Source: Branchiostoma floridae (Eukaryota > Chordata > Leptocardii > Amphioxiformes > Branchiostomatidae). From it: DNA of 64,000 nt. The notes under the pieces were generated by a model, which saw only the letters and a program-made list of their open reading frames with translations, had not been told where the DNA came from and made no database searches. Position numbers and translations under genes: made by a program. The stretch spans positions 13,555,105 to 13,619,104 of the forward strand of contig NC_049992.1 of NCBI RefSeq assembly GCF_000003815.2, written 5' to 3'. Positions 30,701-33,700 of this stretch are shown here, piece by piece (position 1 is the stretch's first letter; every line of letters begins with the position of its first letter).

Positions 30701-33700
30701 TCCCTTCAAATGGTGCTTTTCTTATTGCCCTGATCTCGAAAGTTACACAATTTTGTTTACATTTCGTTGATCCACTGACAGCAGGGGACAATCAACAAAG
30801 TCATAACCGGGGGAAATAACCAATCGGATCCGCTCTCTCGCTGTGTTTGGGTTTTGCGGATCGCTCTTGAAGTACTAATTCTGGAAAGGCCGTGGCGAAT
30901 GTATTTGCGTTTTTCTATGTTTTGTACCCAAACAAGCAACGACTATACATTTTCTAAAAACAGTAGGGTATATGTAGAGATTGGGGAAAGAATACAGTAC
31001 TGGCAGAACATTATTTGTTACGGATGCGACGTAAACATGACATGTACTCATGTTATACTATATCCAGGACTACTTGAAACGACAGCTGGTAAATTCCCGC
31101 AGATGCATAAGAATCAACCGTAATGAAAATACGGTAGTAAGGCCCCCTTTCCACTAGACGGCGATCGCGCTGCGCTCTCACTGCGACCTAAAGAGGATAT
31201 GTGTAATATTTGCTTTCACACTGGGTATGTCATGCAAAACGTAAGAGTGTGACTGAGAAGACAACAAAACACACAAAGTGTAAAAAGATTCGTTTCTTTT
31301 CGATACAATTCGTTGAGCGATATGCCAAATTTTAGGTCGCAGAGAGAGCGCGGCGAGAGCGCCGTCCTAGTGGAAAGGGGGTGTTAATAACGTTTTGCTT
31401 TGGTAAATCAAATACTGAAAACTGTTTCTACTACTGTTACTACTATTACGCTTGTAGTAAGTTGTACTGCTGTAAAGTCGAATGATGCTAGTGATACCTG
31501 TATTACCATGATACTAGTACAGGTAGGCGGTAGCTCTACTACAAGTGCCCGAAAAATAATGGTCAATGTTGTTTTTCAAGTTGATGCCTGTAAAACGGTT
31601 AATCTAGACAAGCTGACCGCATCGTAGACAACAATAATGGAACCATTATTGTTGTGGTTTAGGTCCGGGAGACAGTTCTGACTGTGACTCTGAGCCCGAC
31701 CTGCCGCTGAAGAGGAAGCAGCGCCGCAGCCGCACCACCTTCACTCCGGAGCAGCTGGAGGAGCTGGAGAAGGCCTTCGAGCGAACTCACTACCCGGACA
31801 TCTACACACGGGAGGAGCTGGCACAGAGGACCAAGCTGACGGAGGCCAGGGTGCAGGTCAGTCTGGAGTTATATCTGCTAGCTAAGTTATCTAAACCTAA
31901 CCCTAACTCTACCCGGACATCTACACACGGGAGGAGCTGGCACAGGGGACCAAGCTGACGGAGGCCAGGGTGCAGGTCAGTCTGGAGTTATCTCTGCTAG
32001 CTAAGTTATCTAAACCTAACCCTAACTCTACCCGGACATCTACGCACGGGAGGAGCTGACACAGTGTACCAGTCCAAGCTTTCAGAGGCCAGGTCAGTCT
32101 GTAGTTATCTCTGCTAGCTAAGTCATCTAAACCTAACTCTACCTTGACACACGGGAGGAGCTGACAGAGTCTGTAGTTATCTCTGCTAGATGTCTTTGTA
32201 GAATAGTTAAGATTTCCGGATCGCAATTTTTTAAGACTTGGGAAATGTTGGTTTTATTGTTGTAGATTCACATCACTTTTAAAGTGAAATGATGTTTACA
32301 AATGAAAAGAAAGGAAAAGAAACGACACATACAGATACCCTTGTCTTCATGAACAAATTTAGCTCTTGCCGTGTAAGAAGCAACAAGGAGCATGAGGTGA
32401 AACTAACCGCTGGTATTTCCGTCAAGTCTGCTTCCACACTTGTGCCCAGTTAGCAGGTGTGAGAACTGCTGACTGACAATGATGATATCAGAGTTGGAAA
32501 ACATACACAGGCAGCGATACTCTCGTGGGATAACAGCACAGACAGAGTACCGCGGCTTTGCAGACGCACAGGTGTCCTCCTCATCACTAACCATACCGTG
32601 GTACCTCTTTGTTTTAAAGTACGAGTTTATAGCATTCCTACACATCAGATTCCTTTGTCAAGTTTGTCAATTATATTTTGTCATGTAGGCAGATTGATAC
32701 AGTTTTTGAGTCAACAGTTTCATTCTCTACCAACTGCATCCTTTTAGATATAGAATCCATCCAACTATCGCTTCGTATACAGCGTTTCTTTCACATGCAT
32801 GGCCAAATACTGAGCTCTCCTGAGGGTAAGGGGTCTCAGTGGAAGAAGGACATGGGGGTCAGTGCGGTCAGCAGAGTGACCCCACGGCTCAGGGGACTGA
32901 CAGTCTCAGGCCTGTCGGACACCAGGACTGATACAGACCTGGCAGGGAACACTGACCTCTTGTACGTCCCTACAGTGGCAGTGAAACGGAGCCTGTGAAT
33001 CGCAGGTCTCCCAGGTTGACATCTGTGCCTTTATGGATAGGTCTCCCGCCGGCCGCAGGAAATGGGGGCTGCGGTTGAAAGATGTGGTGGGCGGACAGGT
33101 AGAAATCCTCGCTTCCGCACCGCAGTCATTCCGCCCTCAAATTTTCTCGATCGAGAATAAAAGCCGGTATAGCACACTTGAACCTTAAATACTTGTATTC
33201 AGCCCTCACACGGCCTCAAGGTCTAGTACTTCTCATGCGGAAATCCCAGCTCCTTCAACGCTAGATATATTGGGTAAAAGTCTTTCGCCAAATGCCTTAT
33301 AAAGACCAGAAAAAAATGAACTAAGTAACCAATTCCTTAAGGGAGGCAGAGCTCTTTGTGAAGAATTTAAGGCCCGAAGCTGATCTTAAAGTCAACTGTT
33401 GCCATAAGTTTTCACCATGGTTGTCTTGAAGAAAATAAACAACGTATCGTAGGAGGTTGTCCGTGGGGACCATCGCAGAAGATGAGGGTACGTCTCTGTC
33501 TTTGGTGGGAATCACAGAGGATCTGACCTGTTAGCACGTGAGGAGACCCCCTCTGCTTTTCAATTTATTTTGGCGTGAAGTGCCTCTCTCAGCGCGCCCT
33601 ACCACACGGATCCTCCCTGTTCCCACTGATCACAACCCGCCAAGGAACACTTACTGAAAAGTGGTGGAATTCACAGGGTCAAGAGGCTGGGATGAGCCGT

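Follow-up and report, generated by a model that had tools for sequence, protein, structure and literature searches.

The tandem repeats behind the homeobox exons of the two Pax3/7 genes of Branchiostoma floridae are, in all likelihood, an example of the lancelet "mirage", a minisatellite-like tandem duplication across an exon/intron boundary that is apparently tolerated in splicing. The array behind the Pax3/7b exon is real and was correctly seen in the initial annotation of this DNA, and it is ordinary in kind for a lancelet. Judged from the sequence, tolerated minisatellite copies are favoured over a dedicated Pax3/7 splicing switch, and the mirage probably does little.

Results

The window, that is the whole stretch of 64,000 nucleotides that was analysed, contains two adjacent Pax3/7 genes on the same strand, with paired-box exons starting at 497 (Pax3/7a) and 25332 (Pax3/7b). 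The first gene was named Pax3/7a because the similarity of its C-terminal exons to human PAX3 extends further and because Pax3/7a is described, in the passages of PMC6010424 at hand, as having the more prototypical C-terminal domain. According to the same passages the two genes already stood in tandem in the ancestor of living cephalochordates, and the pair in the window, with its near-identical domain exons, is as they describe. We found no mention of the exon-3 array in them; the main text has a single instance of "splic" and none of "intron". The homeobox exon (exon 3) of Pax3/7a is 188 nt long (9358..9545, plus strand), with the donor CAG|GTCAGT after 9545, and the exon that follows it starts at 10629. 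In Pax3/7b it is 194 nt long (31663..31856, plus strand), matches the Pfam Homeodomain with an E-value of 4.5e-16, encodes the homeodomain to residue 46 and has the same donor after 31856. The rest of the homeodomain is found in exon 4 (35411..35561, plus strand), which provides the partner acceptor of the 3,554 nt intron 3. The exon/intron boundary of the repeat units was placed by reading frame and consensus. The window has one 100-base run of N at 43218-43317, an assembly gap.

Tandem Repeats Finder (TRF) reports a 119-bp unit in 3.0 copies with 90% matches at 31790-32141, and a repeat search gave unit starts at 31790, 31909 and about 32026 together with a fourth piece, which bears out the tandem array of homeobox-exon ends claimed behind this exon. 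The period of 119 bases also stands, while the units start 2 nt earlier than the 31792, 31911 and 32030 first given, so that the unit consists of the last 67 nt of the exon, and not 65, followed by 52 nt of the intron, with the donor between them. The repetition is thus of the tandem, minisatellite-like type and its unit spans the exon/intron boundary. All units lie on the plus strand. Unit B1 (31790..31908) is the end of the real exon and the beginning of intron 3, and B2 (31909..32027) and B3 (32028..32140) are decoy copies with CAG|GTCAGT after 31975 and 32092. The decoy donors are intact, as had been said, although that of the third unit is the full motif and not merely AG|GTCAGT. The fourth remnant suspected near 32141 was found as B4 (32141..32189), with an exon piece at 32147-32169 and an intron piece at 32168-32189; it carries no donor. 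With 2 mismatches in 119 positions, B2 is 98% identical to B1 and therefore looks young. B3, which is 113 nt long and has indels, shows 7 mismatches to B1 over 61 aligned positions in the exon part and 4 over 47 in the intron part. The sequence CAGGTCAGT, exact at all three Pax3/7b donors, occurs five times in the window (9543, 31854, 31973 and 32090 on the plus strand, 61705 on the minus strand) as compared to 0.55 expected, and none of 100 shuffles reached five. At the end of the unit's intron part stands the telomere-like CCTAACCCTAACT, directly before each new exon copy (31896-31908 and 32015-32027).

The real donor gives a Pax3/7b exon of 194 nt, and the decoys would give 313 or 430 nt. 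Read-through from the exon, by use of a decoy or by retention of intron 3, meets a TGA at 31956..31958 (plus strand), the 34th codon after Q46, and the prediction of a stop within 34 codons was right.

It was also possible to observe an array behind the homeobox exon of Pax3/7a, which the first reading of the window had missed. Its decoy copy A2 (9586..9716, plus strand) has a donor weakened to CAG|GTCACT after 9652; the +5 G is lost and the score is 0.53 as compared to 4.60. The next unit, A3 (9745..9782, plus strand), is a remnant of the homeobox exon end with the donor destroyed. Use of the A2 donor would lengthen the exon from 188 to 295 nt, so that in both genes the real donor gives the shortest exon. 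The exon part of A2 is open in frame, and translation past the real donor to the decoy would meet no stop in the 107-nt extension or in exon 4.

Copies A2 and B3 have common bases at unit positions 38, 49, 50 and 52 in the exon part and 77 in the intron part, unlike B1 and B2, and both contain TTTCAGA. The first Pax3/7a unit, A1, equals B1 at positions 38, 49, 50 and 52 and is gapped at 77. The common bases suggest that A2 and B3 most likely descend from one older ancestral copy. Between the paralogues there is 1 difference in 181 nt of the homeobox exon and there are 2 in 370 nt of the paired-box exon; A1 and B1 have 2 mismatches over 40 aligned intron positions, A2 and B3 have 12 over 108. 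Outside exons 2-4 and the array, alignment of the two genes at E<=1e-3 found only an inverted element of about 240 nt, with a 36-nt match inside it, and an inverted match of 37 nt. The former (13989-14198 against 31384-31147, 74%) is probably a dispersed repeat, and on the upstream side one of its ends comes to within about 280 bp of the Pax3/7b homeobox exon.

In its pattern this is what gene conversion leaves behind, a homogenised tract with shared derived sites beside flanks that cannot be aligned. Given near-identical exons and a shared array amid introns that hardly align, it is simplest to suppose that the array moved together with the exon, and it is probably by gene conversion that Pax3/7a and Pax3/7b came to share it. 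Alternatively the array was retained since before the paralogues split, which is less simple since it needs strong constraint on the copies, and such constraint was not found at the donors. The two arrays differ in unit number. A2 shows no differences from the real exon in 37 positions of its 5' part and 7 in 30 of its 3' part (p=0.0023); for B3 the counts are 2 of 37 and 5 of 24 (p=0.10). That selection acted on the 5' half of the copied exon end was rejected as an explanation, as copying from the exon accounts for the pattern equally well.

To compare donor strength, 218 GT sites of Pax3/7b intron 3 were scored with a donor matrix. The three Pax3/7b donors have the same 9-mer and the same score, ranking 4-6, and three sites outside the array (32825, 34811 and 35257) score higher. 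Because the 9-mers and scores are equal, nothing in the donors themselves suppresses the decoys. Among 25 copies from 8 genes, which are not mutually independent, no excess conservation of the donor was found: 177 of 194 positions of the donor 9-mers were identical, as compared to 931 of 1039 in the flanks (p=0.60). The GT is present in 22 of 22 copies with an alignment crossing the donor, a count from which donor-less copies fall out and in which the GT of one locus, L042, is an alignment-gap artefact. This comparison, together with the weakened donor of A2, speaks against donor-specific selection on the decoys.

A search of the lancelet's own genome with the Pax3/7b array gave eight matches; each Pax3/7 locus accounts for one, and the other six are spread over four additional loci. 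The gene names used here, Phox2-, Alx-, Shox-, Prrx- and Emx-like, are those that seem to fit the homeodomain sequences. Two Phox2-like loci have copies on the donor side and, as judged by eye, repeats of pieces from the acceptor side. Their exons (L010, at about 16.2717 Mb of G000:C7, and L009, at about 17.5679 Mb) thus appear to have mirages on both sides, the upstream ones being several repeats of what by eye is the acceptor and exon start, TGCAG|TAGCTCAGTACAAGTTGTT. Two Alx-like loci have 87-bp copies of the acceptor and exon start ahead of the exon, three near-identical copies in one and six in the other (L011 and L012, at about 2.313 and 2.345 Mb of G000:C4), and these arrays are the mirror image of the Pax3/7 array.

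For the Pfam profile PF00046, 150 of 246 candidates were scored, and at least 144 matches were obtained. A split homeobox exon was defined as one where the profile match ends at 44-48, and 61 were counted among the matches listed. We examined 46 of these, six tied to array similarity and 40 more; for the last 20, the examination covered just the donor side. A mirage was present at 11 of the 46, in about seven gene groups and on the donor or the acceptor side; six of the 11 had been found by array similarity. The other five, from the 40 further exons, have self-similar copies at E<=1e-6 and are Shox-like, Prrx-like, two Emx-like and L042. Two weaker self-matches, L039 (E 0.003) and L045 (E 0.0008), were left out of the count. 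When different loci were compared with each other, 4 of 1560 pairs matched at E<=1e-6, all on copy-bearing flanks (L035, L042, L043 and L061), and 44 of 1560 at E<=0.01.

Behind each of the two Emx-like exons, L061 (G000:C14:12802030-12802510, minus strand) and L043, the end of the exon recurs in several short copies. At L061 most of the decoy donors (CAG|GTGGGT, CAG|GTGAGT) outscore the real donor CAG|GTTGGT with the donor matrix, which makes the use of decoys plausible at this gene. The left edges of the donor-side units fall at homeodomain residues of about 21-25 (the T-H-Y-P codons) in Pax3/7 (31909 and 9586), L009, L010 and L035, and are thus common to three paired-class groups, Pax3/7, Phox2-like and Prrx-like. 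Perhaps this edge is a shared breakpoint or a site of microhomology. The Shox-like units start later, at about residues 38-41.

For controls, 40 of 80 candidate open reading frames were scanned with Pfam and 15 matched at E<=0.001. One of them, a reverse-transcriptase frame (L022:1792-4806), was dropped as a mobile element, and of the 14 kept three (Pribosyltran, RAWUL and AARP2CN) are below Pfam's own cut-off. No mirage was seen in the small set of 20 control exons, made up of these 14 from 20 arbitrary 10-kb stretches and six other Pax3/7 exons. The difference between 11 of 46 and 0 of 20 gives p=0.026, and p=0.053 when only the 14 non-Pax controls are used. For the 40 exons drawn regardless of array similarity, 5 of 40 against 0 of 20 gives p=0.16; set against the 3.2% covered by tandem arrays in 181 kb of arbitrary stretches it gives p=0.009, with detection criteria that differ between the two. 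An excess of mirages at homeobox exons over controls is suggestive.

Discussion

The arrays fit well with what is in print on lancelet genes. In the passages of PMC3087553 at hand, mirages are described in the globins Gb6 and Gb9 and in Adh3, like the Pax3/7 arrays as tandem copies across an exon/intron boundary. The globin units are 150-160 bp and cover the 5' or the 3' boundary of an exon; many of the mirage copies, not all, keep the AG/GT splice signals, and BflGb6 has six units in one haplotype and three in another. Boundary duplications also occur in lancelet PGBD5 and troponin C; those of PGBD5 are imperfect 60- and 108-bp tandem repeats over splice sites, and the authors think that accurate splicing is unaffected (PMC3902484, in the part at hand). 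Contrary to the published globin and Adh3 mirages, the Pax3/7 arrays lie in developmental homeobox genes and have a copy common to two paralogues, whereas PGBD5 and troponin C are single genes with no paralogue sharing in those descriptions. The literature matches listed contain no report of mirages in homeobox genes. Together with the like arrays at other homeobox exons, these published cases favour a neutral local duplication, which had been put forward at the outset as one of two readings.

How the normal mRNA would still be made can be outlined as follows. A local duplication may have placed a copy of the exon end and its donor into intron 3, and the ancestor of A2 and B3 would predate the most recent exchange of sequence between the two paralogues, hence its presence in both genes. 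The young extra copy B2 would then have arisen from B1 in Pax3/7b. If the exon is recognised across its length, the donor nearest to the upstream acceptor, the real one, would win among identical donors, and normal mRNA would still be made. Exon definition is a reasonable expectation since the introns beside exon 3 in the Pax3/7 genes are about 1.1 to 8 kb. In an exon-defined minigene with two identical strong donors the upstream one is used exclusively; when both donors are weakened, the constructs with the larger exon mostly skip it, and differences in donor strength otherwise dominate the choice (PMC9225289, in the passages at hand). The Pax3/7 donor has C at +3 and thereby departs from the strong consensus of those minigenes, and Reed and Maniatis, as summarised in the same passages, found the intron-proximal (downstream) donor to be preferred. 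It speaks against the tolerated mirage that the Pax3/7b donors are equal in strength and below the strongest type, and that decoys outscore the true donor at an Emx-like gene, so that at some locus decoys may be used. If a decoy were now and then chosen in Pax3/7b, the reading frame would close at 31956; since other exon junctions follow this stop, the transcript would probably be degraded.

It is conceivable, if rather unlikely, that mirages are non-random and recur at split homeobox exons, either at a hotspot of breakage or conversion or because duplicated splice sites are kept as a dosage buffer. As the contrast with the controls is suggestive and mirages are known in other genes, we do not claim specificity for homeobox genes.

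The other reading first proposed for the array was a built-in splicing switch, in which regulated use of the decoys turns Pax3/7b RNA into nonsense, to be removed by mRNA decay, or into a paired-domain protein without the recognition helix. The three identical donors in Pax3/7b agree with it, as does the stop 34 codons into the extension and upstream of later junctions, and arrays are present in both paralogues. The donors are, however, not specially conserved in the 25 copies from 8 genes, A2 has lost its +5 G, and the frame outcome is unlike between the paralogues, with a stop in Pax3/7b and none in the A2 extension. B2 also looks young, the published mirages are suggested by Adh3 data and globin RT-PCR to leave regular splicing undisturbed (PMC3087553, in part), and the minigenes use the upstream donor. 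We consider a switch quite improbable.

Donors that are never used could also act by binding U1, so as to slow or protect intron 3 and tune the output without any decoy mRNA. Intact donors after 31975 and 32092 would allow this, and in the oestrogen receptor alpha gene U1 is described as being trapped by a pseudo-5' splice site that lies upstream (PMC6002489, in the part at hand). That site is likewise a donor-like sequence beside a real donor, but its authors report a trans-acting factor. The three higher-scoring sites in intron 3, by the matrix used, imply that the array is not exceptional as a platform for U1, and with no donor-specific constraint found such titration seems very improbable.

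A copy may also be on its way to becoming an alternative piece of exon, by the route of intron gain proposed for the lancelet globin mirages in PMC3087553, and the open frame of the A2 exon part would permit it. The creation of introns by AG/GT tandem duplication (cited in PMC3087553; PMC4974935; both in part) is likewise an internal duplication with a splice signal, but there is no sign of a Pax3/7 copy serving as a new splice junction. By eye, no pyrimidine-rich acceptor precedes A2, B2 or B3, the indels of B3 break the frame and any inclusion would interrupt the recognition helix, which makes a nascent exon or intron extremely unlikely.

Lancelets are highly heterozygous, and with B1 and B2 just 2 nt apart the B2 copy alone could be an assembly error or a polymorphism, but collapsed or stacked haplotypes have next to no chance of explaining the whole array, an error of that extent being rejected by the diverged B3 and B4 with their indels, the related array in Pax3/7a and the same arrangement at other loci.

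The array behind the Pax3/7b exon has most likely been identified, as a tolerated mirage, and it is not a speciality of this gene. What is worth following is its sharing between the paralogues and the apparent frequency of mirages at homeobox exons. For annotators and primer designers there is a warning that the ends of homeobox exons can be locally repeated. Should mirages truly recur at split homeobox exons, the homeobox genes would be a natural series of experiments with duplicated splice sites. If the survey holds genome-wide, lancelets offer many such experiments inside developmental regulators, from which one could learn how exon definition copes with perfect decoys and whether some of the copies turn into new exons or introns.
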